From the NCBI GenBank assembly GCA_964036045.1, contig OZ038391.1:44465621-44529620 (forward strand): a stretch of DNA of 64,000 bases, given 5' to 3'. The stretch's first letter is position 1. Each line of letters begins with the position of its first letter. The notes beneath the pieces are model-generated. The model searched no databases and was not told where the DNA came from. It saw only the letters and a list, made by a program, of their open reading frames with translations. Shown here piece by piece: positions 30,042 through 63,852 of the stretch. The translations under genes were made by a program, and so were the position numbers. The DNA is from Eutreptiella sp. 'Long Island Sound 2002' (lineage: Eukaryota; Euglenozoa; Euglenophyceae; Eutreptiales; Eutreptiaceae).

Positions 30042-30181
30042 GCGCTTCGTCTAGCCCCTTGCCGGTGATGGGGGAAGCAGTGATTTGGCTAGTGTTTCAC
30101 CGGAACGTGACCTTTGCGTTTTTGGGCAGAGGGGGCTGGGGAGTGCAGGAGGCGGGTACCCGGCCCTCTGGTTTTCGTGGG

Positions 30182-33430: not shown

Positions 33431-36400
33431 GTGGGGACCCGTCACCAACCCCACTACGCGCGCTCTTGCGAGCTGGCCTTGCGCGCTGGCTTGACACGCT
33501 GTAGGGGCGGCACGAGGGCGCCCTGGGGGGGCGCCTTTTCCCTGGGTACGGGGCGCCCGGGCCCGGGCGCTCCCCCATCCCTGACCACTCGTCCTTTCGG
33601 GCGTGCGGCTGGGGCCCACTACCCACTGGCTGTGGGTGCGGGGGGTGCGGGCGCGGGGACCCGTCACCAACCCCACAGCGCGCGCTCTTGCGAGCTGGCT
33701 TTGCGCGCTGTGGGGGCGGTATGAGGGTGCCCGGGGGGGGCGCCTCTTGCCTGGGTGTGGGGCGTCCGGGGTCGGGCGCCTTCCCACCTCCGACCACTCG
33801 TCCTTTCGGGCTTGCGGCCGGGGCCCACTACCCACTGGCTGTGGATGCGGGTGGTGCGGGCATGGGGACCCGTCACCGATCCCACAGCACGCGCTCTTGC
33901 GAGCTGGCTTTGCGCGCTCTGGGGGCGGCATGAGGGTGCCCTGGAAGGGCGCCTCCTGCTTGGGTGTGGGGCGTCCGGGGTCGGGCGCTCTCCCACCCCT
34001 GACCACTCGTCCGTTTGGCCGTGCGACCGGGGCCCACTACCCACTGGCTGTGGGTGCAGGGGGTGCGGGCGTGGGGACCCGTCACCAACCCCACAGCGCG
34101 CACTCTTGCGAGCTGGCTTTGCGCGCTGTGGGGGCGGCATGAGGGTGCCCGGGGGGGGCACCTCCTGCCTGGGTGTCGGGCGTCCGGGGTCGGGCGCTCT
34201 CCCACCCCCGGCCACTCGTCGGTTCGGGCGTGCGACCGGGGCCCACTACCCACTGGGTGTGGGTGCGGGGGATGGGGCCGTGGGGACCCGTCACCAACCC
34301 TACAGCGCGCGCTCTTGCGAGCTGGCTTTGCACGCTGTGGGGGCGGCATGAGGGTACCCAGGGGGGCCGCCTCTTGCCTGGGTGTGCAGCGTCCGGGGAC
34401 GGGCGCTCTCCCACCCCCGACCTCTCGACCGTTCGGGCGTGCGGCCGGGGCCCACTACCCACTGGTTGTGGGTGCGGGGGATGCGGGCGTGGGGACCCGT
34501 CACCAACCCCACAGCGCGCGCTCTTGCGAGCTGGCTTTGCGCGCTGTGGGGGCGGCACGAGGGCGCCCGGGGGGGGCGCCTCTTGCCTGGGTGTGGGGCG
34601 TCCGGGGACGGGCGCTCCCCCACCCCCGACCTCTCGTCCATTCGGGCGTGCGGCCGGGGCCCACTACCCACTGGCTGTGGGTGCGGGGGGTGTGGCCGTG
34701 GGGACCCGTCACCAACCCCACAGCGCGCGCTCTTGCGAGCTGGCTTTGCGCGCTGTGGGGGCGGCATAGGGGTGCCCAGGGGGGGCGCCTCTTGCCTGGT
34801 GTGGGGCGTCCGGGGACGGGCGCTCTCCCATCCCCGACCTCTCGTCCATTCGGGCGTGCGGCCGGGGCCCACTACCCACTGGTTGTGGGTGCGGGGGATG
34901 CGGGCGTGGGGACCCGTCACCAACCCCACAGCACGCGCTCTTGCGACCTGGCTTTGTGCGCTGTGGGGGCGGCATGAGGGTGCCCGGGGGGGGCGCCTCT
35001 TGCCTGGGTGTGGGGCATCCGGGGACGGGTGCTCTCCCACTCCCGACCTCTCGTCCGTTAGGGCGTGCGGCCGGGGCCCACTATCCACTGGTTGTGGGTG
35101 CGTGGGGTGCGGGCGTGGGGACCCGTCACCAACCCCACAGCGCGCGCTCTTGCGAGCTGGCTTTGGGCGCTGTGGGGGCGGCATGAGGGTGCCCGGGGGG
35201 GCGCCTCTTGCCTGGGTGTGGGGCACTCGGGGACGGGCGCTCTGCCACCCCCGACCTCTCGTCCTTTCGGGCGTGCGGCCGGGGCCGACTACCCACTGGC
35301 TGTGGGTGCGGGGGGTGCGGGCGTGGGGACCCGTCACCAACCCCACAGCGTGCGCTCTTGCGAGCTGGCTTTGCGCGCTTTGGGGGTGGCACGAGAGCGC
35401 CCGGGGGGGGCGCCTCTTGCCTGGGTGTGGGGCGGCCGGGGACGGGCGCTCTCCCAACCCCGCCTTCTCCTCCATTTGGGCGTACCGCCGGGGCCCACTA
35501 CCCACTGGCTGTGGGTGCGGGGGCTGCGGCCGTGGGGACCCGTCACCAACCCCACAGCGCGCGCTCTTGCGAGCTGGCTTTGCGCGCTGTGGGGGCGGCA
35601 TAAGGGTGCCTGGAGGGGGCGCCTCTTGCCTGGGTGTGGGGCGTCCGCAGACGGGCGCTCTCCCACCCCCGACCTCTCGTCCGTTCGGGCGTGCGGCCGG
35701 GGCTCACTACCCACTGGCTGTGGGTGCGGGGGCTGCGGGCATGGGGACCCGTCACCAACCCCACAGCGCGCGCTCTTGCGAACTGGCTTTGCGCGCTGTC
35801 GGGGCGGCATGAGGGTGCCCGGGGGGGGCGCCTGTTGACTGGGTGTGGAGCGTCCGGGGACGGGTGCTCTCCCGGCCCCGATCTCTCGTCCGTTCGGGCG
35901 TGCGGCCGGGGCCCACTACCCACTGGCTGTCGGTGTGTCGGGTGCGGGCGTGGGGACCCGTCACCAACCCCACAGCGCGGGCTCTTGCGAGCTGGCTTTT
36001 GGCGCTGTGGGGGCGGCATGAGGGTGCCCGGGGGGGGCGCCTCTTGCTTGGGTGTGGGGCATTCGGGGACGGGGGCTCTCCCACCCCCGACCTCTCGTCC
36101 GTTCGGGCGTGCGGCCGGGGCCCACTACCCACTGGCTGTGGGTGCGGGGGGTGCGGGCGTGGGGACCCGTCACCAACCCCACAGCGTGCGCTCTTGCGAG
36201 CTGGCTTTGCGCGCTTTGGGGGCGGCATGAGGGCGCCCGGGGGGGGCGCCTCTTGCCTGGGTGTGGGGCGTCCGGGGACGGGCGCTCTCCCACCCCCGAC
36301 TTCTCGTCCATTCGGGCGTACCGCCGGGGCCCACTACCCACTGGCTGTGGGTGCGGGGGCTGCGGCCGTGGGGACCCGTCACCAACCCCACAGCGCGCGT

Positions 36401-38098
36401 TCTTGCGAGCTGGCTTTGCGCGCTGTGCGGGCGGCATAAGGGTGCCCAGGGGGGACGCCTCTTGCCTGGGTGTGGGGCGTCCGGGGACGGGCGCTCTCCC
36501 GACCCCGACCTCTCGTCCGTTCGGGCGTGCGGCCGGGGCCCACTACCCACTGGCTGTGGGTGCGGGGGATGCGGTCGTGGGGACCCGTCACCAACCCCAC
36601 AGCGCGCACTCTTGCGAGCTGGCTTTGCGCGCTGTGGGGGCGGCATGAGGGTGCCCGGGGGGGGCACCTCCTGCCTGGGTGTCGGGCGTCCGGGGTCGGG
36701 CGCTCTCCCACCCCCGGCCACTCGTCCGTTCGGGCGTGCGACCGGGGCCCACTACCCACTGGGTGTGGGTGCGGGGGATGCGGCCGTGGGGACCCGTCAC
36801 CAACCCTACAGCGCGCGCTCTTGCGAGCTGGCTTTGCACGCTGTGGGGGCGGCATGAGGGTACCCAGGGGGGCCGCCTCTTGCCTGGGTGTGCAGCGTCC
36901 GGGGACGGGCGCTCTCCCACCCCCGACCTCTCGACCGTTCGGGCGTGCGGCCGGGGCCCACTACCCACTGGCTGTGGGTGCGGGGGGTGCTGGCGTGGGG
37001 ACCCGCCACAAACCCCACAGCATGCGCTCTTGCGAGCTGGCTTTGCGCGCTGTGGGGGCGGCACGAGGGCGCACGGGGGGGGCGCCTCTTGCCTGGGTGT
37101 GGGGCGTCCGGGGACGGGCGCTCTCCCACCCCCGACCTCTCGTCCTTTCGGGCGTGCGGCCGGGGCCCACTACCCACTGACTGTGGCTGCGGGGGGTGCG
37201 GCCGTCGGGACCCGTCACCAACCCCACAGCGCGCGCTCTTGCGAGCTGGCTTTGCGCGCTGTGGGGGCGGCACAATGGTGCCCGGGGGGGGCGTCCGGGG
37301 ACGGGCGCTCTCCCACTCCCGACCTCCCATCCGTTCGGGCGTGCGGCCGGGGCCCACTACCCACTGGCTGTGGGTGCGGCGGATGCGGGCCCGGGGACCC
37401 GTGACCAACCCCACAGCGCGCGCTCTTGCGAGCTGGCTTTGGGCGCTGTGGGGAAGGCATGAGGGTGCAGGGGGGGGGCGCCTCTTGCCTGGGTGTGGGG
37501 CATCCGGGGACGGGTGCTCTCCCACCCCCGACCTCTCGTCCGTTCGAGCACCGGCCGGGGCCCACTACCCACTGGCTGTGGGTCCGGGGGGTGCGGGCGT
37601 GGGGACCCGTCACCAACCCCGCAGCGCGCGCTCTTGCATGCTGTGGTGGCGGCATGAGCATTACCCGGGGGGGCGCCTCTTGCCTGGGTGTGGGGCGTCC
37701 GGGGACGGGCGCTCTCCCAGCCCTGACCTCTCGTCCGTTGGGGCGTGCGGCCGGGGCCCACTACCCACTGGCTGTGGGTGCGGGGGGGGCGGGCGTGGGG
37801 ACCCGTCACCAACCCCACAACGCGCGCTCTTGCGAGCTGGCTTTGCGCGCTGTGGGGGCGGCATGAGGGTGCCCGGGGGGGGCGCCCCTTGCCTGGGTGT
37901 GGGGCGTCCGGGGATGGGCGCTCTCCCACCCCCAACCTCTCGTCCGTTCCGGCGTGCGGCCGGGGCCCACTACCCACTGGCTGTGGTTGCGGGGGGTGCG
38001 GGCGTGAGGACCCGTCAGCAACCCCACAGCGCGCGCTCTTGCGTGCTGCGGGGGCGGCATGAGGGTGCCCGGGGGGGGGCGCCTCTTGCCTGGGTGTC
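33431..38098 (+). repeat. 209-bp satellite array, about 22 monomers
   Basis: The monomer starts, for example, at GTGGGGACCCGTCACCAACC, and homologous points recur every 209 bp (35634, 35843, 36052, 36261, 36470, 36679, 36888). A few monomers near 37260-37680 are shortened. Since 209 is not a multiple of three, the very long open frames through it on both strands rotate frame at each unit; they reflect lack of stops, not coding. A higher-order pattern exists: the block 34147-34437 recurs at 36651-36941, about twelve monomers later. Confidence 0.9.
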
Positions 38099-39300
38099 TG
38101 ACCTCAGACGCCCCCCACAATGGTGCAAAGCACCCCCCCCGGGGACGCCCTTCCGCCACCCCCACAGCGAGCAACGCCGGCCCGCAAGGGCGCACGCTGT
38201 GGGGCCGGTGCTGGGTCCCCACGCCCGCACCGACCGCACCCGGGACACACGGGTTGCGGAACCCTGGCTGCCCGCTCCAGAGGACGGGCGGCCGGGGGAG
38301 GGACAGCGCCTGACACCAGACCCCCCTCACAACGGTGGCAGGCCACCCCCCCCGGGGACGGCCCCCCACCAACCCCACGGCACGCAGCCCCCACAGGGCA
38401 TGCAGGGCAAGGGGACACTGTTGGGCCCCCACACCAACACACCCGCGCCCACAGCACGTGGGTGGCGGACCCGAACAGCCCGCCCAGTCGGCGGGCAGTC
38501 GGGGGAGGGGGAGCGTCTGACCTCAGACGCCCCTCACAATGGTGGAAGGCACCCCCCCCGGGGACGCCCTTCCGCCACCCCCACAGCGAGCAACGCCGGC
38601 CCGCAAGGACGCACGCTGTGGGGCCGGTGCTGGGTCCTCAGGCCCGCACCGACCGCACCCGGGACACACGGGTCGCGGAACCCTGGCTGCCCGCTCCAGA
38701 GGACGGGCGGCCGGGGGAGGGACAGCGCCTGACACCAGACGCCCCTCACAACGGTGGCAGGCCACCCCCACCGGGCACGGCCCCCCACCACCCCCGCGGC
38801 ACGCAGCCCCCACAGGGCATGCAGGCAGAGGGGACAGTGTTGGGCCCCCACACCAACACACCCGCGCCCACAGCACGTGGGTGGCGGACCCCAACAGCCC
38901 GCTCAGTGGGCGGGCAGTCGGCGGAGGGACAGTGCCTGACCTCAGACGCCCCTCACAATGGTGGAAGGCACCCCCCCCGGGGACGCCCTTCCGCCACCCC
39001 CACAGCGAGCAACGCCGGGCCGCAAGGGCGCACGCTATGGGGCTGGTGCTGGGTCCCCACGCCCGCACCGACCGCACCCGGGACACATGGGTCGCGGAAC
39101 CCTGGCTACCCGCTCCAGAGGACGGGCGGTCGGGGGAGGGACAGCGCCTGACACCAGACGCCCCTCACAACAGTGGCGGGCCACACCCCCCCGGGGACGG
39201 CCCCCCACCACCCCCGCGGCACGCAGCCCCCACAGGGCATGCAGGCCAAGGGGACAGTGTTGGGCCCCCACACCCACACGCCCGCGCCCATAGCACGTGG
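38099..39300 (-). repeat. inverted satellite array, alternating monomer pair
   Basis: Units of about 419 bp start at 38100, 38519 and 38938 (ACCTCAGACGCCCCTCACAA). Each is a pair of diverged half-units of about 209 bp, the second starting ACACCAGACGCC. The segment CCCCCACAGCGAGCAACGCC is the complement counterpart of the monomers in the first array, so both arrays share origin and run in opposite directions. The turn lies at about 38098, in CTGGGTGTC followed by TGACCTCAGA. Confidence 0.8.
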
Positions 39301-45849: not shown

Positions 45850-47442
45850 TCAGGGGTAGGGGTACCACCTCGACCCAACTGCTTCTTGAGGAATTTCCTC
45901 TGATCCGGGAGTCCGGGAGTCATTCTCTCTCTCAAGAGCTAGCTCAATCAAGAGGTCCACCAGTTCATCGTACGAGTGGGTCCTGCTCTTCCACTCAGAG
46001 GTGGAGCGGCAATCATCCCACGTACGTTGGGGGATCTTACTCAAGAGCCACAGGTGGGGCTCAGTGGCTCCGTAGAAGCCCAAGTTCATCCTCAAAAACA
46101 AGTACTCCAAGTCGCACACATATTCAGAAATTCGCGCAGCGGATGGAAACTCAGGGAGCATAGGTAGCTCCTCGATGTATGTGCGTACGCTTAGGTCAGT
46201 CTCATAGACTGGGAATGTTTTCTCCAACCTGAGGAGTACCTGTGCCCAGGTAGAACAGGTTTTCACAATCTGTTTCACCTGTTTTTGCAAAAATTTCTTT
46301 TTGCATGAGCGTTTCAGCAGTGAGCATTTGGTGGCCACATCCACATGAGATTGGCCGGTCAGCAAAAGGAACTCTGCAAATTCTTCTGCCCATTCGGGCA
46401 GATTTTTGGGGTCGAACTCCGGCAGGTCCAGCTGGATGTTCGCCTGGGCAATAGGTCTGCCCGTCTTCCCACCCCCCGGAGTTAGGCCTGAAGGCGACAC
46501 GCAGGCAAGAGGTGCCAGGGCTGACAGCCCTCTTTTCTCAATCCCTGTGACAGGCACGTCCTGTAGTTCAGCCATAGGCACTGTCCTGGCACGGGGGTGA
46601 AAGGGGCTGGGGCAGGTGACCTTAGGCAACAGCCTTGAGACCCTTGATCTCTTAAGATCTTCGGCCAGGGTACTCAGTCCGGGAGAGGGGGAGGACAACT
46701 CTGGCCTGGGTAAAGGTTCTGCAATACCCAGTTTCGCCTTAATGGCCTCCGATAGGGCCGTCACATCTGGATCCTCTGATCCAGACACGAGCTTGGCCAG
46801 CAGTTCGGCCGTATGATCCAGGGCACCGTAGGTTGGCCTTGGATGATGATGTTCCTCAACTCAAGTTGGGCCTACTTCGGGAGCCCTTCGGGTTGGACAA
46901 CATGCTCTTGGATACTCGGGGCTCGGTCGTCTTGGCAGGGATGCTGTCTCGGCTCTGTCGGACGGCGGGCCAGAGTGCGCGTAGGACCCTAGGTCTGTAG
47001 GTGGTCTGGATCCATGTACTGCCAATGGCTCCTCTCCATCTTCTCCACGAATGGATTTGTAGTACTCGTCATGGAGGATGTATTCATCCATTTTCTTCCT
47101 TAGTTCCTCATACTCCTCAGGGCCTTCAATCGCTGTTGAGGATGAAGCCGGACAGTTGGATCTGGATACTGAGGCTGCTACACGCCTGTGGAGATGACTG
47201 AAGCTGTCTCCACCGTGGGCCGCTAAGGCTTCGCTGGTGAGGCCTTTTTTTTCTTCTGCCCTTCTGCGTTCTGGATCTCCTTGGGACCCAGATGCGCCAC
47301 TGAAATGTTGTGGAGCTCGGTAAGGTGGTTCACTCATAAGGTGGGCCATGCTGCCCCTTTGCACTTGGACAGTTCTGATGGGCCAGGTCCTGACGCTTGG
47401 CGTGGACATGATGAACTTGTTGTTGAGCTTTGTGTGCTGCAC
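45850..47442 (-). pseudogene. gypsy gag, 5' part (B2)
   Basis: The frame starts at ATG 47442 (193 codons) and resumes at 46788-45850 (312 codons) after a break near 46860. It is better preserved than B1 gag. Landmarks: LPEFDPKNLPEWAEEFAEF, ATKCSLLKRSCKKKF, and WDDCRSTSEWKSRTHS. The zinc knuckle lies beyond the truncation. This copy shows which codons are broken in B1. Confidence 0.8.
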
Positions 47443-47882
47443 TTCTTCTCAGGGTCGGTTCAAAAGGTCACAAGGGACTGTCTCTGCTACCGGAAAGATG
47501 TCCTTGATTTATGCCCTAGATATTTTGATGAAATCCTGCAGGTTTTGTAGTTGAAAACCCAAACCAAAGCAGCAAGTAGAGCAAGAACAGGATGTGGATC
47601 AAATCAATGATTGGTTTAGGAATCCAGTGTAACACAGAAGGGCTGCAGATAGACAAAGCAGGTTTATACACAAAGATTCAATCACAAATGGATAATACAA
47701 AAGATTTTATATGAAAATTGGTCTTACTGTTGCCTCAGAGATAGCATTAGGCACTTCATGTGCACTCCTTTGGGTGAAATGGTGCTGGTTGGGAATGTGG
47801 GGCATAGATGTCAGGACCACACAGAAAATGACTTGGCCAAGCAACTGAATTCAGAAATAGTTACAAAGTAGGACCACAATAA
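47443..47882 (-). repeat. 5' noncoding region of B2, gag-side part
   Basis: It matches 17205-17654. A TATA-type sequence (CATATAAAA, minus strand, near 47710) is conserved with B1. It ends with AATAA, the left target duplication of the inserted transposon. Confidence 0.7.
47878..47882. repeat. left target-site duplication AATAA
   Basis: AATAA stands next to the left inverted repeat; its partner is at 54276-54280. Confidence 0.9.
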
Positions 47883-47911
47883 CTTAGGCGGCTCAAGTTG
47901 CATGGTCAAAA
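47883..47911 (+). repeat. left terminal inverted repeat
   Basis: 29 bp, an exact complement of 54247-54275. It starts CTTAGGCGG and ends GGTCAAAA. Confidence 0.92.
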
Positions 47912-47953
47912 TGCGCCCAAAACTGCCTCTCCACGGCACTGCGAAAAAATAGT

Positions 47954-48381
47954 CCTTTTGGGGGGGACGTAAAACGCAAGAACCAAAAATCCCGTGAGAA
48001 GCAATTAACTGGTCCATTTTCCTTTATTTTCAACAAAACCCACTGCCCGGGAAAAAGATTTATTTCCACCAAATGAACTTCTTTTTTGGGAAAACCACGA
48101 CTTTTTGTTTCCTCTACCATTTATGCTTTGCAAAAAAAACACTTGTGAGCTTTCAATATTCTGGAAAACCAGTTTTTGAAAACCATGTTGCACGCAGCAC
48201 CACAGGAAGCACTTTTTGGTACCACTTCTTTGCGCGAGGCCTCGCGCAAACACCAACACAACAGCGCAATAAAATGCATCACAGAGAAAAATGTGCCGCA
48301 CAAGGTGACAGCATAAAGGTCGTCGAAGAGGAATGCATAGCGCGAGCCCTCGCGCATAATATATCAGAACAAGCGAAGAAA
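47954..48381 (-). other. 3' flank of gene B
   Basis: No gene. Two palindromes (48230, 48338), and an A/T-rich stretch (48005-48140) that could hold the poly(A) signal of gene B. Confidence 0.5.
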
Positions 48382-51166
48382 TTACTCTTTCTTCGGAACA
48401 GTTTGCATCTTAGAACCCATAGCCTTAGCAACGGACGTGTTATCCTTAGGAGGTGGCTTTGCGGGCGCGCTTCTTGGTTGGGACTGACGGCCTGGCTGCT
48501 TGAATGGAGCTCGGGCCCCGGTTTCCTCGCACCTCGGCTTCGCTGCCACTTTCTTCGCTGCCTTGCCCTGGGAGACCTGCGCTTCCTCCTCCTCTTCTTC
48601 CTCGCTCCCCTCCTCTTCATCCCCATCGCTCTCGTCGGATTCTGCACCGGTAACTGACTTCGCTGCCTGAGGCTTGGAGGCAGTCTTCTTCTTCTTGGGG
48701 GCTGGTTCCCCACCAGTAGACTTCCGCTTTGCAGGGGCCAGTGCTTCTGCAGCTTGACCTTTCTCAACAGTCTCTTCCTCCTTCGGCGACAACGCCTCAT
48801 AACCCACCTTGTCATCGCAAACCCAAAGGGGAATACCAAGGTTTGCCCAGTTGGCTTGCTGGTCCCAATCAACAAACGCGTGCAGTTTCGACTCTGGTGT
48901 CAATACATGGTTCAACTGAGTCTGCACTCTGTTGACCCCATCGGAGAGATTGTCGGAGGTAACACCAAGAAGGTACATGCGAGAATCCAGCTCCACGGAC
49001 GCCATCTTGCACACCAGATCCGGCTGATGATCAATGAACACAAACGCAGGCTTGAAGGTCTTATCCTGCTTCAGGTGAAAGAGGTGAGTGTCGAAATACC
49101 ACATAAGCGTCGTTATCGGAAGGTGACCGCCAAATTCAACAGGATCCATCTCCTCTACTTGAGGAGGTCCAAACGTCAGATATTTCGGAATCTGCAATGA
49201 GGGAGAAGTTATTGCGCGAGGCCTCGCGCAAAGAGCGAACGTAATGAGGGAATTATACCTTTCTCGACCAACTATTCGGTGACGCAATCAGCAACCAGCG
49301 AACGTCAAACGTTGTAAGATCCCCTGCAAGCTTCAGTTTGACTGGCCAACTGAAGATGGGAATAAGCAACATGTGGCCAATGCGCGGCGCGTTGAAATCA
49401 TCGTTGAGACGCCTCTCTGTTTCCGTTTCCAGCACGTTGAACATGTTCTCAGCAACAGTTTTGGAGCCGCAGATAAGGGTATCGGCACGCGCCATCTCTT
49501 CATACAGCTAGGCTGGGCACATCGTCTCAGGAGCAAGATGTTCAAATATGTCGCCGTTGATGATAATCAGGTTCTTGTCAATCTCCATGAAGCGCTTCGG
49601 GGGTTCCTGGTTCAACGCTGCAATTCGGGTCGCCTTAACTGTGATAGTCTGACTTGACAATGATGGATCCTGCTGTTCCACTGTCTTGAAGTCACCAGTA
49701 ACGCCAGCAGGTGGGGGGACCACACGGCTCTTGGTAGGCTCTTGACCCAGGAGTTTTTGGACGTTGAGGATTTTCAGGGGGGCGGGTTTGCCTTTCTCTG
49801 CCACCTGCCACAGTGGTGCGCGAATCATGGATTTCCATGCCGGCCATGGACCGCGACTTTTGCCTTCAGACCCACGCCAATAGCCCCATGTACCAAGAGT
49901 CACCTTCAGGGCAGACCTTCCAAGTGCAGCAACCTCTTTGCGGGTCCGCATGTCTTTGGCTAAACAACAGAAATGGAGAAAGTGCGGCGCACTGATGCAG
50001 AAATGGAACCCAAGTCGCGTCGAGGGTACACACTGCTCTCAGGTCGAACGTACTGGCCGTTGTGCGGGTGGTCAAGATGCATTGAGACCCACTGCTCAAG
50101 GATGATGTCGTCAAACGAATTCTGCAAGGATTTAAGGGTTGTTTTTTCTTCCTGCATCACTTCTGCCACTTTGTTGTAGAATTCGGGCAAGAGGATCCCG
50201 TCCAGTTTCTTCAGCGCGTTCTTCGTGACTTTCTCCCCTTTGTCGTGGAACTTCTGCAGACCTTTCACAGCTTCCGGCCAGCATAGTAGGCAAACGTCAT
50301 AAAATCTTTCCACAATTGATACGTTTTGTCCTGACAATGACAACGTTATGCGCGAGGCCTCGCGCAACGAAGAGCGCCGAAACAACGATTAATGAACATA
50401 CGAATTGACCAGGTTGCTTCAGTTCAGCGGTTGGAACCAGGGCACTCATCTGCACAGCATCCACAATGGCGATCTTGAGATTGCTGTACGTGTCAGGTAG
50501 GCCTCGCCGCCGCTGATCTTCAACACATCGAATCAAGTTATTTGCTGCCTCATACAGCGGAATTGGCTCAACGTCTTGTGCGCTTCCTTGTGCTTGTCCC
50601 GCCAGCTTTGCACGGAAGGCCCACGGTGTCGTAGGCTTTAGAATATCGGCGATGCATGTAGTATGCCAGTGCTGCAGATCTAGACACGCGGTACGTCGCT
50701 TCTCCCGAATCTTCGCAACCGCTTCCACGCTGTGCTGTCCAGATACACACCAATAATCGCCATCTGCAATATGAGACACGTCTTTGCGCGAGGGCTCGCG
50801 CAACGAGAAGAGCGAAAAGTCGGTTGGTAACATACTATTATCTTCCCACAGAACCACGTGTAATGGGCCTGTTGGCGATGCTGCTTCGAGTGACTCAATA
50901 CGCTTCTGCAGTAACTTCGCATCTCTCCGTCTGATCTGCCCCTTCGTCTTCTCCTGGTCGATTCTCACGTTGTCGAGCTCAACCTCCACCTGCCTCCCGT
51001 CCAGTTTCAGGTGGTCCTCGATGTCAGTACCCAAGGTTAAGCCAGGATCTGGTGTTTCCTTCTTCTTACGCCCCTTCTTTGGTGTTCCAGCCTCCGATCC
51101 TGAGGTCCCAGGGTCATAGTCGGTATCTTCTCCTTCCTCGGCTGTTTTTTCGGCGTGGCTTGCCAT
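48382..51166 (-). CDS. spliced gene with ParB/Srx-like domain (gene B of the transposon)
   Basis: The start is ATG 51166, followed by an acidic and Lys-rich N-terminus (KKGRKKKETPDPG). After a basic helical segment comes a ParB/Srx-like core: LHVVLWEDN, then across intron 1 NGDYWCVSGQHSVEAVAKI, where GQHS stands for the GQHR box of ParB. Three short introns (50764-50835, 50331-50401, 49192-49258) each hold the palindrome. The middle (FHDKGEKVTKNALKKLDG; INGDIFEHLAPETM) is less clear; the last piece faintly recalls the start of N4/N6 DNA methyltransferases that often follow ParB domains, but no DPPY box is seen. The tail is acidic, then basic (PKKKKTAS, possible nuclear signal), and stops at TAA 48382-48384. 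Odd points: an in-frame TAG at 49508-49510, a frame change near 49960, and a phase problem at intron 2. This copy may be damaged, or my exon model is incomplete there. Confidence 0.6.
49192..49258 (-). other. intron 3 of gene B with palindrome
   Basis: 67 bp, GTATAATTCC to CATTGCAG. Splicing joins SPNSWSRK to IPKYLTF in phase. The palindrome is at 49212-49231. All three introns share CGCTCTT just before the palindrome on the minus strand. Confidence 0.75.
50331..50401 (-). other. intron 2 of gene B with palindrome
   Basis: About 71 bp, GTATGTTCAT to ATTGTCAG. The palindrome is at 50348-50367. With this donor the next exon enters a frame that stops early; using the GT a few bases upstream would enter the long open frame (CLLCWPEAVKGLQKF). 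The donor choice is not settled. Confidence 0.55.
50764..50835 (-). other. intron 1 of gene B with palindrome
   Basis: 72 bp, GTATGTTACC to ATATTGCAG. It has a length divisible by three and no stop, so the unspliced frame stays open; splicing joins LWEDN to NGDYW and restores the ParB motif. The palindrome copy (50784-50803, one mismatch) is in its centre. Confidence 0.75.
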
Positions 51167-51402
51167 TCTGCGATAAGAAGAAAGCCTGTATTGAAGGAAA
51201 CCATAACATTAAAAATGGGTAAAATCGTCGTCGATAATGCATATGTGGGGTGCTTTTAGCGAATACGAGTACAGTATGGTTGAGAATGCAAGACTGAAGG
51301 GGCACGCCACTGTTTTTGACTGACAACCTTGCGTGAGGCCTCGCGCAAGAGAGGGGGTGTACTAACCTGTTGTTTCATGCTGTTTGCGCGAGGCCTCGCG
51401 CA

Positions 51403-53387
51403 TCACTGCATGTTACCCAATCTTCTTCGAACGTTTCGCAGCGTGTCAGCCTCTCTCTGTTCCTCCAACACACTGCGTTGGGGGATCAGCTCCGACAGTT
51501 TTCGCTTGAAACCAGCCTTAAGTGGCCCATGCTGTGTTAGCACCAACAACACAGACACAAGGACTTGTTTGTAGTGGTTAGAACCCTTTGGAATTAGAAG
51601 AGACGGTGGAAAGTTAGGTACACCCCTGCGCGGCCAATGCGCCTGAATTGCACAAGTAGGTTCAGCACACCACCTAACCCAAGGCACATATACACGCTCT
51701 GCGTTCAACTAAGCAGTTAACCGCTGACGCACGGAATTGACAAAGGAATTGGGGATTTTACAGACGTTCACCCTGTGACCTTCTTTGCGGATAGTGATGA
51801 GCTGATACAGATCGTCAACATCTTCAATGGTTACTGCACCTCTGTTCTGGCCCTTCTTTGTCACAAGGCTGTAAGCAGACTTTCGCAAAATTCCTCGGCA
51901 AAAGCCTGTCCAGGCATGGCTGAGTGCCACGCAGTGTGGCACAATAGCGCAGTTGCAACAGTGCGTTCGTATTTTAAAAGTGTGTCCCCCATGTTCAAAC
52001 GGTCTAACAGACACATAACAATCTGCAATCCCTCAGAAGCAAAAACACCCGTGTTGGCTGTCTCCCCAGCCCAATTGCACTGCCTAACGAGGTGTCCCAG
52101 GTACAGTAACATGGGACAGTATTGTGTTAACAGAACCTGCATGGCCTTACACACAGCGTAACGAAGGCGACTTCGCCAATTTGCAGGACGTGCCAGCTCA
52201 AGGGAACGACATTTTCGGTTAAGGCGCCGTATGTGGAGGCCCATACCCAACAGCAGTGCACCAACAGTTATCTCCATTGTAATCAGCTTGGGAAAACAGG
52301 GGACTGTGTCACCGCTGCGCAACAAACCCTTACGGAAAAAAGTCACGATCGGCCAAAATGAGCGAAACGTTTGTGTAACGAAAAATTTGTACGCGTGCCA
52401 GAAACCATATAATATAGGGTGTGAACGCAAAAAAAGCCGGACGTTGCAACCCGTTGTTTTTTCACCGTACATCATCTTACAAATGCGGTAATGGATGTTC
52501 TCATCACATAAGACAGGGACAACTGGTCGGCTGTGCTGCGCCAAGTCCCCAGTAAATTGCAATAGGTTAGAAAGCGATAGGTTGCCGCTTATCTTTTCTT
52601 TGCTTAGACAAAGGGGTCGCCAATGTGGTCTCTTGGCAGGTACAGGGCGAATAATGTCAAGCGGTGCCCTAATGTTTCGCACAACAGGTCGCGTGCTTGC
52701 AAATCCTAGATCCTGCAGGATACGTGCAAACGTTCCCTCGGTGTTTCCTAGCATGCGTGCAACAATAGGAACACGCCGTTCAAGGTCTTCCAGGCTAGGA
52801 TGACCATGCCAGTAGCGCAGTGCATCCTTGAGTAGCAACACAGCCAACGATGTTGCGTTCAGGCTTTTGTCGTTTTTGTTAGGATTTGTGGTAAACTGTT
52901 TGTTGTACCAGTTGTCCATCCACCACACAACCCACTGTTGGTAAATTTTGTCCCATGTAGTCTGTAACCTGACTACGGCCTTCTCCTTCAACGAAGGTGC
53001 GCTGTATCGCGCCAGACCTGACCTTGCTAAAATGCGACGCTGCGCCCTACTTCCCTCTACCGCAACAACTGACTTCGGTTTTCCCTGGTATGGAACTGCG
53101 CGGTGGCGCATCAGCAAATAGAGGCGCCGGGCCTCCTCTATCAAAACACCAACCCATCTCTCCCCTTCTGCCGCAATCGCCTTTTCAACGCTGCAACGTG
53201 TCCGTTCATTTTTGCGCAGACGCAGAAAAAACACAAACAACAATCGCGCGCCCTCGTCCCCCTGTTTTAGCCCTTCCCACAGTTCTTCTGCCGTGTGGTA
53301 CGGCGGTTCCTCTGAGCAAACATCGCGGAAAACTCCGGATGCTGCGGCCACTGTCTTCTCAAGGTCCACCTCTTTTCGCAGGGGCAT
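51403..53387 (-). CDS. unknown large protein, candidate transposase (gene A of the transposon)
   Basis: ATG 53387 opens 508 codons to 51861. Two further open pieces follow in another frame: 51709-52014, ending in a TAG, and then 51403-51708; both look protein-like (GAVTIEDVDDLYQLI; LKAGFKRKLSELIPQR). A frameshift near 51885 or an unrecognised intron would join them. There is a basic N-terminal half (SRAQRRILARSGLARY), a striking aromatic stretch (WVVWWMDNWYNKQFTTNPNK), then a region with hydrophobic segments. I cannot find a DDE/D or tyrosine-recombinase triad. As the largest gene of a complete transposon it is the candidate transposase; that is inference from position only. The last piece ends beside palindrome 51384-51403. 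Confidence 0.55.
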
Positions 53388-54194
53388 TGTTGCTGTAAAG
53401 AATAATTGCGTAACTGTATCTGCGTAAAAATCGCTGTTTGAAAAACTTTCTTGATTTGAAACATCAATCTGTCACTCAGTTTTCGCGCGACCGATTATTC
53501 TGTGATTCGCTTGTCGCATGCACCATTTTCGGTTACCTCTAACTGTCTGGTGATCCCACATTTCACTAGTTAATCCTGATTGTGGTACCCAGTTGCGGCG
53601 CGCTTCCATCGCTGTTGGGCAGTGAAGTCCGCGGTGACCACAGTATGAAAACCGGAGATGCCGGCGGGACCTTTATGGGCGCCCATGCAGCAGCGCCGCA
53701 TCAAGGGAACGTACATACTGTGTAGTTGGTTGATCTGTCCAATTTTGGCTTTTATGAACGCTTGTGACCCCTATTGCGCGAGGCCTCGCGCAATGATAAC
53801 CGAAACTTTAATGTTTTTCATGCGCCGTTCCATGCGCGAGGCCTCGCGCTTGAAACTGCAGTTGGTTCCGGAACATTTATGCTTTTCAAGATTCTTGGGT
53901 TCACCATTGTTGCAGTTTATTCGTTAATAGATCTACCTCTATCACGCAATCCTGATAATGGTACCAAGTTACGTGTACAAATACGACAGCGTTCCATTTT
54001 TCGACAACCTGCCTAATGCGTTGTGCTGTAGCACGTTAATCTGACACAAATGAACGTCTTTGCGCGAGGCCTCGCGCAAAGAATGGCCACCAAACAATAC
54101 TTTTCCCTGTCTCGCCCATGGGACACATCATTCTTATAGAAATATTGAATCCACCATACTTGTTTGCGACGCTTTTCAAATATCCATCACAACA
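53388..54194 (-). promoter_or_regulatory. upstream region of gene A
   Basis: An 800-bp stretch between the start of gene A and the right inverted repeat, without a convincing gene. It contains three palindromes (53774, 53832, 54060), two of them only 38 bp apart. It is the natural place for a promoter and for binding sites of an element-encoded protein. Confidence 0.4.
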
Positions 54195-54246
54195 ACTATT
54201 TTTCGCTGCCTTTGGAAACCTGTCATTTTCCTACGTTTTCCTTCGT

Positions 54247-54275
54247 TTTTGACCATGCAACTTGAGCCGCCTAAG
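54247..54275 (-). repeat. right terminal inverted repeat
   Basis: 29 bp, an exact complement of 47883-47911. It ends CCGCCTAAG. Confidence 0.92.
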
Positions 54276-54280
54276 AATAA
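54276..54280. repeat. right target-site duplication AATAA
   Basis: AATAA is followed by GTGGTAGAAAC, as in the empty site 17650-17665. Confidence 0.9.
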
Positions 54281-54598
54281 GTGGTAGAAACAATTGAGTA
54301 TAGGGGTCTTGGGGTGGGAGACTACTAGGCTTAACCTTCAAGGCCTAAAGCATGAAGTGCCTATTTTATTTCGGTATATCCTCCATGAAGGAAGGTACCT
54401 CCGCTCAGTTGAGTGGTAGGGGTAAACTTCATGGGGGGCTAGGGTCACAACCCTAGTTACTCTGAGAAAGTGTACTTTAGGCAACAAAAGAGAGATAAAA
54501 ACACTTAAGTTTGTCTTAGCATCAACAAAAGGATTTTAAGGAAGGCTTGGCTTGGATCAAGCCCTCCAAGAAAGAGATGGCAGTGACTTTTTCTTACT
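54281..54598 (-). repeat. 5' noncoding region of B2, distal part
   Basis: It matches 17655-17973, closely by eye. It ends with TTCTTACT at 54598, where the YR element begins. Confidence 0.75.
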
Positions 54599-56233
54599 AA
54601 AACTTTTGGAAATGGTGTCTGCGGGGTTCCACTGTGACGGTACATAGGTTAACTTAAGCATGATCCCCAACCAGCGTAGTGTTTGTTGTATCCCCCTTAC
54701 CGTCGTGGCCCCATCTCGGTGGTGGATCTTTGTCTTCTTTTTGAGCGCCAGATGCACCTGCTGCCTTCTCCTGTACGCCGCCATCTTGACCGCTCGCTCC
54801 ACTGCCTGCAGCTCCGCCGCTTGCTGGTTCCGTACTGCCTTGGGGCACTCCCACACTCGCACTCCTGCCTCCTGAAACCATAAACCGACCAGGTACGTGT
54901 TCTCGTATTCTGCTGCATCCACATACATGTCGATGTCGTTTGCGGCTGTAGTTCTTCGCGCCCACAAGGGCCCCATTACGGACGCCAGCGCTTCCGCCAG
55001 TGCCCGCAGTACCTTCGGCGGTGTGGCCCACACATCATCCACGCCAAGGCCCCACCTGTATGTGGTCCTATTTGACGGGCTGGCCTGTCTGCCCACGCCA
55101 ATTTTTCCATGCGTCTCATGTCCTTCTGGCTGCAACCCATGGTCGCCAGCTTCAGCCACAAGGCCACCATGCCGGCAGTGTACGGCGCTGAGGATTGGAT
55201 CGTCCAATGCCTTCCATCCAGGCTCTTCCCCATCCACTCGATTGTGTTCGTGGGCTCCAACTGGGACTTGGGACTGCATATCCAGCCGTCACGCTCCAGC
55301 AACTCCCGTAGTTGTAATCCTGCTGCCCCTACCTCCGTCTTGTCATATCCATACACCAGCACGTCGGCGACGAATTGTATCGGTCGTATCCCCGGCATGT
55401 GGAACTTCTGTAGCGTCGTTCTCAGCAGTTCTGTTGCCATCAGGGGACCGTGTGTCCACCCGAACGGCAGGCTGTAAACCCCCACACCCTGCCTTGGGAC
55501 CCGATTTTTATCGTGCCCCTCTCCTGCTCCGGCATCCAGCATGACCAAAACATGTTCGCCACGTCTAGTTTGCAGAAACATATGGCCTTACCCTTGCCCG
55601 CCGCCTCTCGGAACGTTTCTCCCGAGTCCTCAAGTGTGGGCAGTTGCAGTGGCGTACTCGGCCGTTGGCATCGCTTGTTCAACGGGACCATGTTTGTGAT
55701 TAAGGACCCCCTTTCCTGGGACTTTGGTTTGGTGAACGCCTTGGCATTCGGTAGCCTCCCGTCAGCGATCTCGTTCGCAAGCCGTCCTTGTGAATGCGCT
55801 GGACCATCGCCGCCAAGGCCGGGTCTCGGCTTGCTTTCTGGACCGCTGCATTCTCATGAGCCTCTCCCCAGCTGCAGGGCTTGTGCGTATGCCACATCTC
55901 CTCACGGATGTCCACTCTGCCAGCTACTCCAAGGCCTTTGCTCGCCGTCTCCACCCACACTTGGCCCCGACTCTGGTCGCCATCCTTGTTGCCCTTGGGG
56001 CTGACATCCCCTGTCGGCCATACGTCCCATGGCTCCGTCTCGTCGTCCCGGAGTGCCTGCAGCACCGATGTGAAATTCTGTTCCGCCTCCTCCTGCTGTG
56101 GGCCCGTCCCGGCTCTTTGACCCACCCTGACTGTCAGATCTCGCAACAGCCCACTGATCATCTCCGGTTTGCTCCACTGCCGCGCCATACGCTCCGCCAC
56201 TTCCTCCGTCAGCTGCTCCATGTCCACCCCCAT
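54599..56233 (-). pseudogene. RT and RNase H of the YR element
   Basis: RT pieces lie in three frames. There is a leading part (56233-55700). Motif A (FCKLDVANMFWSCWMP) is in 55691-55440. Then VYSLPFGWTHGPLMA (motif B) and QFVADVLVYGYD (motif C, with VADV where a second D is expected) are in 55581-54976. RNase H is in 55279-54600: DIDMYVDAAEY (D), QQAAELQAVERAV (E) and the typical end YVPSQWNPADTISK. The two frame changes (near 55500 and 55060) and the changed catalytic box show an inactive copy. The open frame runs on into B2 sequence to 54557. Confidence 0.75.
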
Positions 56234-56586: not shown

Positions 56587-58158
56587 TCAGAAACCCTCCG
56601 CGCTGACCTCCATCTCTTGGCATGGCTCAGCCTTCATGTGCACTTCGTGGGCATCCTCGCATCGTCTGTCGTTTCCGGTCCGGTCTTCGCTTGTTGCCTG
56701 ATCGACTGCTTCCCGTTCATGCTTGGCCACGTCCGCCCCATTTGCCACCGTCTCCTCCGGAGCTGTGGCGGCCTCCGCTGCGCCCGCTCTTCCATTGTCG
56801 CCGTCGGCGTCCATCTTCTTCTCCCCGTCCGCCCACTCGTCTACGTCGATGATCTCGATGGGTCTTGCACCATGTCCCGCCGTTCCTTCGTCCGCCCGTG
56901 GTTCACCTCCTTGCTCAAGGCCTGTACCAGGCACAAGTTCGGCATCTCGTCCCATTTCCTTTTGTGCGGCATCCTGCATGCTCCGGTTCTCGGCTTCTCT
57001 TCGGGGTTCTTCGTGATCTGAATTGTCTTGGTCGCATCCCCCATCCTGATCGTCCAGGTCTTCGTCGTTGTCGGACTCGTTGTCCACCTCCTGAGGAGTG
57101 GCAGGGCAGGCAAACGTTTGGACCGTAGGAGGGGTCTGGTTCCTTTTTCTCCCAAGATCCCATGCGAATGCATCCCTATGCCACAGCTCCTTGACCGGAA
57201 TCCAAGTCCATTCACAGTCACGCGTCAAGTGCCCCGAGTCACCCACTGGTGATGGAAGGAGGACACTGAATGGCATCTTCCATGACGGTGGGTGTGCCGC
57301 GTATCGTGCAGCTTGCCTTGGTGTCCGCCAACGGGCCCATAGTGCCAAGGCCTGCAGGGATCCTCCCAGCGCCCTGAAGCATGCTGCCCCCATGCATTTC
57401 CACGGGTGCCATCCCAAGAGGCCGCACTCCGTACCTGTGAACAGTTCAGTCTGTAACTTCCGTGGGGCATCGGGTCCTCCCGGGATGAATATGTTCTCGT
57501 CGTGCTGGTGTGGCCGCCCGTGCGTGTAGAGCCAATTCCGCCACCGTTCCCAAAATGGTGGTATGGGCTGGGCACACATCTCCTTGGCCACTTTGTAGTC
57601 GAAGAACACCAGCCACCCCTTGTGTGCCAGCCAGCCCCATCGTAGTTGTGCGACGTCTGATATCCTGAGGCAGATGGTGAATGCCATCCCGACGGCAAAG
57701 AACACCCTTGCCCAAGCCCAGTGCACCCTCCTCTCTGCCAGTGTTTGAAAGTCGGCCACTGTCACCCATACTCGGGGCCTGTCTTCCGCCTTGGCCATCT
57801 TGCCGATTGCTCTGAGTTGCAGCCGGTGTAATTCTGTGACGGAGGCCCGTATGAGTTTGAGTTTCTCCAGCATTCGTATCCCCGCCACCAGGTTGTTTGC
57901 CGCCGAGTAGCCTCGTTTGCGTAGTGCCAGTACTGCGAACCGCCGTTGAATCGCCACCGCCAATGGTTCGTCGGTGCCGCACCCTCGCAACGCCGTTCGT
58001 ACCTGTTGCATGCATGTCGCCGATGAGCTGGCCTCCACCCCACGGATCGCCATCGCCGTACCCACTGTTCCCCACTCCTCTGTCCTGGCGTGCATGACGA
58101 CATCGTGGGCCTGCCAGGTCTCGGCCACCGTGGCCCCCATGTCCGGCCCCAGCGCCAC
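56587..58158 (-). CDS. tyrosine recombinase of the YR element
   Basis: An intact frame of 523 codons. The N-terminal helical domain (about residues 40-130) precedes the catalytic domain: R165 in CLRISDVAQLRWG, H251 and K254 in GWHPWKCMGAACF (H-x-x-K rather than H-x-x-R), and ALWARWRTPRQAARYA with the likely nucleophile Y286. The last 200 residues are very acidic (DNESDNDEDLDDQDGG) and have no fold. The enzyme would join the circular cDNA to the target without a target duplication. An ATG at 58158 is the first in frame. It is the only full-length enzyme ORF of this element. Confidence 0.8.
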   Translation of the reverse strand: MALGPDMGATVAETWQAHDVVMHARTEEWGTVGTAMAIRGVEASSSATCMQQVRTALRGCGTDEPLAVAIQRRFAVLALRKRGYSAANNLVAGIRMLEKLKLIRASVTELHRLQLRAIGKMAKAEDRPRVWVTVADFQTLAERRVHWAWARVFFAVGMAFTICLRISDVAQLRWGWLAHKGWLVFFDYKVAKEMCAQPIPPFWERWRNWLYTHGRPHQHDENIFIPGGPDAPRKLQTELFTGTECGLLGWHPWKCMGAACFRALGGSLQALALWARWRTPRQAARYAAHPPSWKMPFSVLLPSPVGDSGHLTRDCEWTWIPVKELWHRDAFAWDLGRKRNQTPPTVQTFACPATPQEVDNESDNDEDLDDQDGGCDQDNSDHEEPRREAENRSMQDAAQKEMGRDAELVPGTGLEQGGEPRADEGTAGHGARPIEIIDVDEWADGEKKMDADGDNGRAGAAEAATAPEETVANGADVAKHEREAVDQATSEDRTGNDRRCEDAHEVHMKAEPCQEMEVSAEGF

Positions 58159-58474
58159 CTTCGGTCCAGCCCCGACTCCGCTGAGCTCCTGTCATTGCTG
58201 TTGGCTTGGGTCTAGTGCCCGCGATTGCAGCAAAACCTGTACCATGCGGAGAACGGCATCATCCGAGCCCTCCCGTTGTCCGCCCGCCTCCCCCTCCTGT
58301 CCGACCGGTGTCGCTGGCTGTGGCAACAGGGATACCCTCCCCTGTGCCCCACATGGGAACATCTCCAAGTGCAGCTGCCCGGAGCGCCTGCACTTCGCGG
58401 GGGGCGGACCATTCAGGTCGAAGGTCCACCCCTTGTTACTAATCATCATGGTCTGGTCACCCACCTATGATATT

Positions 58475-61404: not shown

Positions 61405-63852
61405 TCCTTTGGCTCTACAATCAGATGCAAGAAGACAGTGTGCACCGAAGCATTCAACATGGCTAATCAGGTGGCCACAGTCCTCAAATCTGAGACAATC
61501 AATTTATTTGGACCTTGAAAGATGTTCACGCCAACTCAACTTGATTGGAGATGTCCTGATGACAGAAACAATGCCCGAGCATCTGAGTTGGATTCTGTGG
61601 ACACAGCAAGAAGACCTGCTGCTGCACTTTTTTTTTTCCGGTTCAGACCTTGGTAAGCTGGCAAAGCCCGCGTACCAGATGGCACTTGAGAGAATTCTCG
61701 GAATCAGGGAACTTCGAGTGTCCCACAGCTCAGTGTGGTAGCGGACATGACACGTAGTCAGGGTGAGCTAAACCAGAAGATGCAGCGGGAACTGCCAGGC
61801 CCACAGGCTGCCGTAAAATGGAATGAAACAATGCGCAACACAACTTGGCAGCATGCAGATGCATCAAGGGATGGAGGGAAAGCTGCTAGAAATGATTTGC
61901 AAAAGCAGCAACCCTATGGAATAATGAACCTGACAAAATGAGACATACCTAGGAAATTAGCAACTTTGAAAACACACAGATGGGCAATGATATGATTTGC
62001 TGCCAGAACTGAGGCGGAAAGTAGGAGGTGGCAACTTTGTTTTGAAGCCAAACATCCCACAACAGCACACAAACGCCCAAAAGGAGCCCAGAAGGACACT
62101 GTACATCAACTTGCCAACTCATGTGAAACGATGAATGAGGACAGACGATCCAGCATGAATTTGCAAAGAGGGCAAAATGTCCGTGGCTGCTATGGATGCG
62201 GCATCAGCTCCTGCCAACTGTCCTTTGGCTCTACAATCAGATGCAAGAAGACAGTGTGCACCGAAGCATTCAACATGGCTAATCAGGTGGCCACAGTCCT
62301 CAAATCTGAGACAATCAATTTATTTGGACCTTGAAAGATGTTCACGCCAACTCAACTTGATTGGAGATGTCCTGATGACAGAAACAATGCCCGAGCATCT
62401 GAGTTGGATTCTGTGGACACAGCAAGAAGACCTGCTGCTGCACTTTTTTTTTCCGGTTCAGACCTTGGTAAGCTGGCAAAGCCCGCGTACCAGATGGCAC
62501 TTGAGAGAATTCTCGGAATCAGGGAACTTCGAGTGTCCCACAGCTCAGTGTGGTAGCGGACATGACACGTAGTCAGGGTGAGCTAAACCAGAAGATGCAG
62601 CGGGAACTGCCAGGCCCACGGGCTGCCGTAAAATGGAATGAAACAATGCGCAACACAACTTGGCAGCATGCAGATGCATCAAGGGATGGAGGGAAAGCTG
62701 CTAGAAATGATTTGCAAAAGCAGCAACCCTATGGAATAATGAACCTGACAAAATGAGACATACCTAGGAAATTAGCAACTTTGAAAACACACAGATGGGC
62801 AATGATATGATTTGCTGCCAGAACTGAGGCGGAAAGTAGGAGGTGGCAACTTTGTTTTGAAGCCAAACATCCCACAACAGCACACAAACGCCCAAAAGGA
62901 GCCCAGAAGGACACTGTACATCAACTTGCCAACTCATGTGAAACGATGAATGAGGACAGACGATCCAGCATGAATTTGCAAAGAGGGCAAAATGTCCGTG
63001 GCTGCTATGGATGCGGCATCAGCTCCTGCCAACTGTCCTTTGGCTCTACAATCAGATGCAAGAAGACAGTGTGCACCGAAGCATTCAACATGGCTAATCA
63101 GGTGGCCACAGTCCTCAAATCTGAGACAATCAATTTATTTGGACCTTGAAAGATGTTCACGCCAACTCAACTTGATTGGAGATGTCCTGATGACAGAAAC
63201 AATGCCCGAGCATCTGAGTTGGATTCTGTGGACACAGCAAGAAGACCTGCTGCTGCACTTTTTTTTTTCCGGTTCAGACCTTGGTAAGCTGGCAAAGCCC
63301 GCGTACCAGATGGCACTTGAGAGAATTCTCGGAATCAGGGAACTTCGAGTGTCCCACAGCTCAGTGTGGTAGCGGACATGACACGTAGTCAGGGTGAGCT
63401 AAACCAGAAGATGCAGCGGGAACTGCCAGGCCCACAGGCTGTCGTAAAATGGAATGAAACAATGCGCAACACAACTTGGCAGCATGCAGATGCATCAAGG
63501 GATGGAGGGAAAGCTGCTAGAAATGATTTGCAAAAGCAGCAACCCTATGGAATAATGAACCTGACAAAATGAGACATACCTAGGAAATTAGCAACTTTGA
63601 AAACACACAGATGGGCAATGATATGATTTGCTGCCAGAACTGAGGCGGAAAGTAGGAGGTGGCAACTTTGTTTTGAAGCCAAACATCCCACAACAGCACA
63701 CAAACGCCCAAAAGGAGCCCAGAAGGACACTGTACATCAACTTGCCAACTCATGTGAAACGATGAATGAGGACAGACGATCCAGCATGAATTTGCAAAGA
63801 GGGCAAAATGTCCGTGGCTGCTATGGATGCGGCATCAGCTCCTGCCAACTGT
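61405..63852 (+). repeat. three tandem copies of an 815-bp unit
   Basis: Copies at 61405-62220, 62221-63035 and 63036-63852, nearly identical. The differences that I see are the T-run length (61628-61637 and equivalents), A/G at one site, and C/T at one site in copy 3. The unit begins TCCTTTGGCTCTACAATCAG and ends TCAGCTCCTGCCAACTG. Frames inside a unit are short (61-131 codons); the frame change between copies at the T run argues against a long coding role. The near identity points to recent duplication, or to assembly of a collapsed repeat. Confidence 0.9.

Follow-up and report, generated by a model that had tools for sequence, protein, structure and literature searches.

A palindrome array in a two-gene DNA transposon of Eutreptiella and its candidate role as a set of protein-binding sites

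Described elements with short repeated motifs

ParB proteins bind their sites and spread from them in a CTP-dependent manner. Introner elements and repetitive hairpin elements are short repeats of introns or other noncoding DNA that can form hairpins. The VANC proteins of VANDAL elements counteract silencing: they bind their motif and remove DNA methylation. The subject of this report is an array of ten palindromes in a DNA transposon with two genes, A and B, found in a 64,000-base stretch of the genome of Eutreptiella sp. 'Long Island Sound 2002' (contig OZ038391.1, positions 44,465,621 to 44,529,620), here called the window. The closest described systems are transposons that carry many copies of a short motif. 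In En/Spm (CACTA) elements, the subterminal TnpA repeats are cis-determinants of excision, TnpA is needed together with TnpD, and passengers move if the cis sequences are kept, as the pertinent passages of PMC2613891 describe. The element-encoded protein VANC21 binds a short motif of the Arabidopsis VANDAL21 elements, mainly in noncoding DNA including introns and upstream regions (passages in PMC5735166). This motif is family-specific, with a variant that differs by subfamily (passages in PMC5735166 and PMC10398659). A protein joining ParB and methyltransferase is described from an Ectocarpus transposon, with relatives said to occur in transposons of green and red algae; the passages concerned in PMC12477816 mention no motif array.

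On the best reading, the array of the window element would work like the TnpA motifs of En/Spm or the VANC motifs of VANDAL. The likeness to En/Spm lies in the two gene products (there a transposase and a DNA-binding protein) and in the many copies of a short cis motif, some of them near the ends and retained in passengers. In the En/Spm element described in those passages, however, the motifs are subterminal, the terminal inverted repeat (TIR) begins with CACTA and the target site duplication (TSD) is 3 bp long, whereas the window element has perfect palindromes in introns and between the genes as well, a TIR that begins with CTTAG and a TSD of 5 bp. The En/Spm transposase is of the CACTA type; here no Pfam family rose above its cut-off in A or B, and B gave no CACTA transposase match at that level. 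The likeness to VANDAL is a family-specific motif in noncoding DNA, introns included. VANC21 motifs are, in the published passages, 9 bp long, of one orientation and arranged in dense, fast-changing tandem repeats, whereas the window element has ten dispersed palindromes of 16-20 bp, spaced 55 to 2,390 bp apart, which are constant in number and similar in their distance from the ends in two families. By membership the element is neither En/Spm nor VANDAL, because its ends, duplication length and proteins differ. With ParB-parS it shares several palindromic sites clustered on one element.

Distribution of the palindrome in the window and in the genome

An earlier note, made from the letters of the window, had reported ten copies of one palindrome inside the transposon and no other in 64 kb. 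A search of both strands of the window bears this out. TTGCGCGAGGCCTCGCGCAA with up to three mismatches occurs ten times between 48230 and 54079 (four copies exact, four with one mismatch, two with three) and nowhere else on either strand; the chance expectation is 0.00 (100 dinucleotide shuffles, maximum 0). As the window consists mostly of repeats, absence from the rest of it says little, and the real control is the genome search. Seven of the ten sites are perfect palindromes of 16-26 bp. The twenty half-sites of the window element, read from the centre outward, give CCTCGCGCA: positions 2-4 and 6-8 are invariant, the majority base stands at position 1 in 18, at position 5 in 19 and at position 9 in 18 of the 20, position 10 is A or T, and little is conserved further out. 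Along the direction of the genes, three sites lie in the 5' flank of B, two in the gap between B and A, three within gene A (introns 1, 2 and 4), and two in the 3' flank of A. The further statement that the palindromes never fall in a coding exon also holds: none of the 160 core bases is coding (probability 3.2e-6 that ten randomly placed cores in the element all avoid coding sequence), and the 20-mer at 51384-51403 overlaps B only at the final base of its stop codon.

The genome that contains the window (2.28 Gb) was searched alongside control patterns. The palindrome with up to two mismatches occurs at 13,886 places against one for the reversed pattern, and the exact core 18-mer TGCGCGAGGCCTCGCGCA at 10,135 against none. 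The TIR of the window element's family (family 1) was found with up to two mismatches at 1,741 + 1,656 places (control 0). That of a second family (family 2) was found at 1,230 + 1,211 (controls 1 and 0). The transposon is abundant: passengers included, the genome holds about 3,400 ends with the first TIR and about 2,400 with the second. The first 20 clusters of exact 20-mers on one contig, C1, which hold 39 of the 50 places listed, were sampled as loci. All 39 exact 20-mers lie inside stretches resembling the element or its passenger. When three mismatches are allowed, the same holds for 93 of 94 cores, and the remaining core straddles the edge of one of these stretches. The yardstick of similarity for the passenger type NA1 is copy L022, itself one of the 20 loci. 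Both of two isolated 18-mer places lie within elements. Predicted proteins that read into noncoding DNA reveal both sites of the B-A gap in copies P0114 and P0120 and the intron 4 site in P0068, with a degenerate site there in P0121. The earlier note had named two findings that would count against its proposal, equal density in unrelated genes and absence from other copies of the transposon; what was found instead is concentration of the sampled sites in these elements and palindromes in other copies.

A second family and gene-less passengers

Family 2 was reached through protein cluster P0123, 46% identical to B. It comprises at least 12 loci; 68 of 8,464 first-look candidates were scored. 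Two overlapping stretches of one contig (L038 and L027) together give a full element of 6,861 bp, the one full element on which the family 2 site count and intron comparison rest. Its TIR, CTTAGCCCACGCAAACTGCACCC, has CTTAG and scattered bases in common with the family 1 TIR. It carries exactly ten palindromes, divided 3-2-3-2 among the compartments as in family 1, again with no coding core base. Its gene A encodes 879 amino acids (aa) through four introns. The A proteins of the two families are identical at 300 of 821 aligned residues (36.5%), the B proteins at 46%. On contig C5 (~3.79-3.83 Mb; L030/L031 and L033/L035), a set of two family 2 copies that share the flank beyond the right end is present twice, about 30.7 kb apart, a repeat that is likely a segmental duplication.

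The introns of gene A lie at residue/phase 110/1, 231/0, 330/1 and 563/0 in family 1 and at 113/1, 234/0, 335/1 and 567/0 in family 2. By position and phase all four are homologous between the families. Palindromes occupy introns 1, 2 and 4 in family 1 and introns 2, 3 and 4 in family 2. Since homologous introns hold a palindrome in one family and not in the other, the introns would be older than some of their palindromes; by the same comparison, sites were gained or lost between the families while the count within gene A stayed at three.

This bears on the suggestion, made in the earlier note, of a small parasite of the transposon, and on the related idea that a very short palindrome, mobile in itself or acting as an introner, spread inside the element and made its introns. 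The same word does stand in three introns, sites have come or gone in introns 1 and 3 between the families, and these three introns of family 1 resemble one another outside the palindrome, introns 1 and 2 beyond any of 2,000 shuffles and the pairs 1-4 and 2-4 with P 0.016 and 0.011. The palindrome did not, however, make the introns, because the four are homologous in both families whether or not they hold it. The number of sites per compartment is equal in two families whose proteins are 36-46% identical, and no target duplication is visible by eye at the sites. Introners and hairpin elements differ also in that the palindrome here occurs in one element type only, at similar distances from the ends. 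A parasite or introner of this kind was rejected on the intron positions and is scarcely credible.

Two types of passenger carry the palindromes and would lack the genes, judged by their dissimilarity to the autonomous elements; both have the TIR and the TSD length of an autonomous partner, as miniature inverted-repeat transposable elements do. NA1 has the family 1 TIR and accounts for six of the 20 loci (L006, L009, L019, L021, L022 and L024), of which four hold a copy about 1.7 kb long, L019 one of 1.3 kb and L024 a partial one. All five two-ended copies have 5-bp duplications, and up to four palindromes are present. NA1 matches the window element at the TIR and sites only, and nowhere once those are masked. 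NA2, with the family 2 TIR, is represented by two complete 1,212-bp copies (L042 and L043) with duplications AGCCA and TATAA and three palindromes each; with TIR and sites masked, its matches to family 2 are weak and 21-27 bp long (E 0.002-0.007). As the passengers keep palindromes, whatever reads these would act in trans on DNA without A and B. In the right part of NA1 (L006, L009, L021 and L022) the palindrome closest to one end forms part of an imperfect palindrome of far greater length (CAATGGACTG..CAGTCCATTG for L006).

The bases at the edges of the core differ between element types. Core positions 1-9 are identical in both families. At position 10, counted over arms, family 1 has A in 15 and T in five, and family 2 has C in 19 and T in one; at position 11, family 2 has T in 18 and A in two, and family 1 has no clear preference. 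The NA1 copy L006 has A five times and T three times at position 10, and each of the 12 NA2 arms has C followed by T at positions 10 and 11. In the arms compared, edge type tracks TIR type in all four element types. The distances from core to end are alike as well: for the end 5' of B and then the other end, they are 198 and 349, 457 bp in family 1, 199 and 346, 504 bp in family 2, 201-202 and 346-347, 502-503 bp in NA2, and 208 and 377, 483 bp in NA1 (measured in L022). Counted from the end 5' of B, the second core lies at 426 bp in family 1 and 425 bp in family 2. The strongest sign that sites and ends act together is that the distances in NA2 and family 2 agree within 3 bp even though the DNA between is unrelated.

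The palindrome might instead be the site of a host protein (a transcription factor, insulator or chromatin protein) captured for the expression or placement of the element. The same 18-bp core in two families with diverged proteins and TIRs only partly alike would suit such a site. None of the 39 exact sites examined lies outside elements, however, the edges vary by family along with TIR type, and similar end distances recur in gene-less passengers, so that we regard a captured host site as improbable.

A further reading, raised in the earlier note as hairpin processing signals, takes the palindromes as RNA hairpins that guide splicing, 3' end formation or stability of element transcripts. Three of the four gene A introns hold a palindrome, which forms the main helix of their predicted folds, and sites follow closely 3' of the stop codons (those at 51384 and 48338, and likewise in family 2). 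The gene-less passengers retain palindromes at similar end distances nonetheless, intron 3 of family 1 and intron 1 of family 2 do without, the outermost two sites lie within a 47-bp subterminal inverted repeat (83%), and the predicted intron energies are undistinctive (-14.7, -16.0 and -12.2 with a palindrome, -11.7 without). Among 144 distinct sites there are 64 one-sided changes and no compensatory pair, which is a mild argument against pairing, as many copies are probably dead. Of these changes, 23 are CpG transitions; 22 fall in the central pair, the would-be loop, which counts in favour of a hairpin. Passenger retention and the lack of compensatory changes disfavour RNA hairpins, which we hold to be very unlikely. 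The same lack tells against a cruciform or single-strand DNA hairpin used in recombination, replication or end processing. The palindromes are perfect and free of spacers, and some are extended (to 26 bp at 54057-54082 around palindrome 10, to 30 bp in family 2, further in NA1), as a cruciform would favour. Yet the bases beside the core differ by family in sequence and not only in pairing, and a structure of this kind is most improbable.

Proposed function of the palindromes and points that weigh against it

Probably, the palindromes are cis-acting, duplex-DNA binding sites for a protein of the transposon itself. This proposal of the earlier note is well supported by comparison of the copies, which shows that sites in the sample are confined to elements, that the core stays constant, that the compartments hold equal numbers, that distances from the ends are similar, that the edges go with family and TIR, and that passengers retain TIR and palindromes. 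We infer that a protein binds the palindromes, that it is the element's own and that binding serves transposition. The steps may be as follows. (i) The transposon-encoded protein, most simply a homodimer, would bind the palindromes as double-stranded DNA. (ii) It would recognize the core and its edge and work together with the TIR. (iii) The sites about 200 and 350 bp from the two termini would help to assemble the complex that moves the element, autonomous element and passenger alike. (iv) The internal sites would sit where sequence can vary freely, in introns, in the gap between the genes and in the flanks. (v) They would extend the array along the full element, where it could serve to load the protein cooperatively, to let the element recognize itself or to control silencing. 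The presence of internal sites within introns and in the gap between the genes speaks for such a second use, as with VANC. A fuller scheme can be drawn, in which one protein loads at the ten noncoding palindromes like ParB at parS and meets the transposase at the ends by way of the sites at ~200 and ~350 bp, the array serving both transposition and self-recognition against silencing; taken as a whole it is speculative, and we think it rather unlikely.

Gene B is presumed to encode the transposase. Our guess as to the reader leans slightly towards A, with B acting at the TIR. The earlier note had singled out the product of gene A as a natural candidate on account of a ParB-like look. That identification found no support: no ParB family matched A in Pfam, PHROGs or NCBIfam up to E = 10, the PHROGs matches were two families of unknown function (E 0.21 and 0.26), and there was no significant match among PDB sequences. 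The resemblance (GPL-V--WED-DG---V-GQH--E) is one seen by eye. For gene A, which has neither a ParB nor a methyltransferase match, the algal ParB and methyltransferase proteins in the published passages serve as a lead only. The A protein of family 2 gave only weak Pfam matches, in its acidic tail (best Myc_N, E 0.0054), and a piece of it had no match among plasmids.

Several points weigh against a reader encoded by the element. In profile searches no DNA-binding family rose above its cut-off in A or B; the weak helix-turn-helix match of B (HTH_18, E 0.057) scores 14.2 bits against a cut-off of 33.6. AlphaFold models of B are poor, with pLDDT values of 36 and 33 (from 15 and 25 sequences). A core that stays the same between families with proteins 36-46% identical is more constant than co-evolution with a reader would require, and this leaves some likelihood to a reader from the host. 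Binding sites also do not account for the resemblance of introns 1 and 2 to each other beyond the palindrome. L010 is a deletion derivative from a subfamily with 77% identity to the window element; there, four of 120 site bases differ (four of 80 without the two exact sites used to pick the locus), compared with 248 of 1,030 bases in the flanks. In the other sampled copies 32 of 1,314 site bases differ against 625 of 9,425 in flanks. These loci (L006-L025) were chosen by an exact palindrome, however, so that the lower divergence of their sites is biased. In family 2, eleven loci were chosen through their protein; their sites differ at 13 of 1,070 bases (1.2%) and other noncoding DNA at 271 of 13,003 (2.1%), with 1.7% in introns and 1.6% in coding sequence; gapped bases number 10 in sites and 60 elsewhere in noncoding DNA. 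A gap this small between sites and other noncoding DNA would be expected if most changes arose after insertion, and we take most of the divergence in family 2 as such decay.

Searches for the motif and for B in other sources gave little. The exact 20-mer had no match in IMG/VR and one among GTDB genomes, on a Bosea contig, taken as chance. Protein B matched nothing in IMG/VR or among phages. An Rfam scan of 47000-55500 returned one U4 match below the gathering score (E 0.27), likewise taken as chance, and the 18-mer TGCGCGAGGCCTCGCGCA occurred in none of the paper texts searched. None of the profile libraries searched contains a family that B matches above cut-off, so the element may represent a transposon group outside them.

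If the sites are binding sites, a cis-acting code may be readable from sequence: a TIR combined with palindromes at fixed distances, a scheme common to two families and two types of passenger. The system offers material for testing how an accessory protein and its sites co-evolve, why sites persist within introns, and whether any eukaryotic transposon marks its full length with an array of palindromes.

Features of the element and of the rest of the window

The window copy of both genes is decayed. Each has a frameshift as well as an in-frame TAG, which in gene A lie near 50.28 kb and at 49508-49510 respectively. In another copy (P0001) the B protein is 661 aa long. Copy L039, equal in length to the window element and 96.8% identical, has a stop-free A protein of 832 aa with the same splicing, intron 1 there being 73 nt. 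A 5-bp TSD flanks seven of eight two-ended elements (the window element and six of seven others, none at L018) and also L039, L042 and L043. Locus L018 (2537-7474) consists of two inverted halves with inverted flanks and no TSD, and probably arose by inverted duplication of the locus or as an artefact of assembly.

Table 1. Coordinates of the transposon in the window and of its parts (positions in the window).
Feature	Position	Strand	Remark
DNA transposon, whole, 6,393 bp, two genes	47883..54275		TIRs and TSD
TSD AATAA, 5 bp, left	47878..47882		direct duplication
TIR, left, 29 bp, CTTAGGCGG...	47883..47911	+	100% complementary to right arm
TIR, right, 29 bp	54247..54275	-	complementary to left arm
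TSD AATAA, 5 bp, right	54276..54280		direct duplication
Gene B, single exon	51403..53387	-	presumed transposase
Gene A, five exons	48382..51166	-	ParB-like look by eye in N-terminal part
Gene A intron 1, 72 nt	50764..50835	-	with palindrome; homologous family 2 intron without
Gene A intron 2, 71 nt	50331..50401	-	with palindrome
Gene A intron 3, 74 nt	49960..50033	-	without palindrome; family 2 counterpart has one
Gene A intron 4, 67 nt	49192..49258	-	with palindrome
Palindrome 1	48230..48249		exact; core 349 bp from left end
Palindrome 2	48338..48357		3 mismatches; gene A 3' flank
Palindrome 3	49212..49231		exact; intron 4
Palindrome 4	50348..50367		1 mismatch; intron 2
Palindrome 5	50784..50803		1 mismatch; intron 1
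Palindrome 6	51329..51348		1 mismatch; between B and A
Palindrome 7	51384..51403		1 mismatch; starts on last base of gene B stop codon
Palindrome 8	53774..53793		exact; gene B 5' flank
Palindrome 9	53832..53851		3 mismatches; gene B 5' flank
Palindrome 10	54060..54079		exact; core 198 bp from right end

Other parts of the window hold further repeats and reading frames. An open reading frame (ORF) on the minus strand at 30272-31129 has a weak match to a 2OG-FeII oxygenase of AlkB type (E 0.0084, below cut-off); the ORFs beside it, at 26636-30050, look by eye like a LINE endonuclease and reverse transcriptase. A long minus-strand ORF at 56587-58191 has, by eye, the look of a DIRS-like tyrosine recombinase, with no Pfam match up to E 0.1. 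From about 33000 to 38700, overlapping ORFs in several frames end every ~209 bp, as in a long GC-rich tandem array. The ORFs at 61996-62334 and 62811-63149 have identical translations and lie 815 bp apart, which marks a recent tandem duplication.

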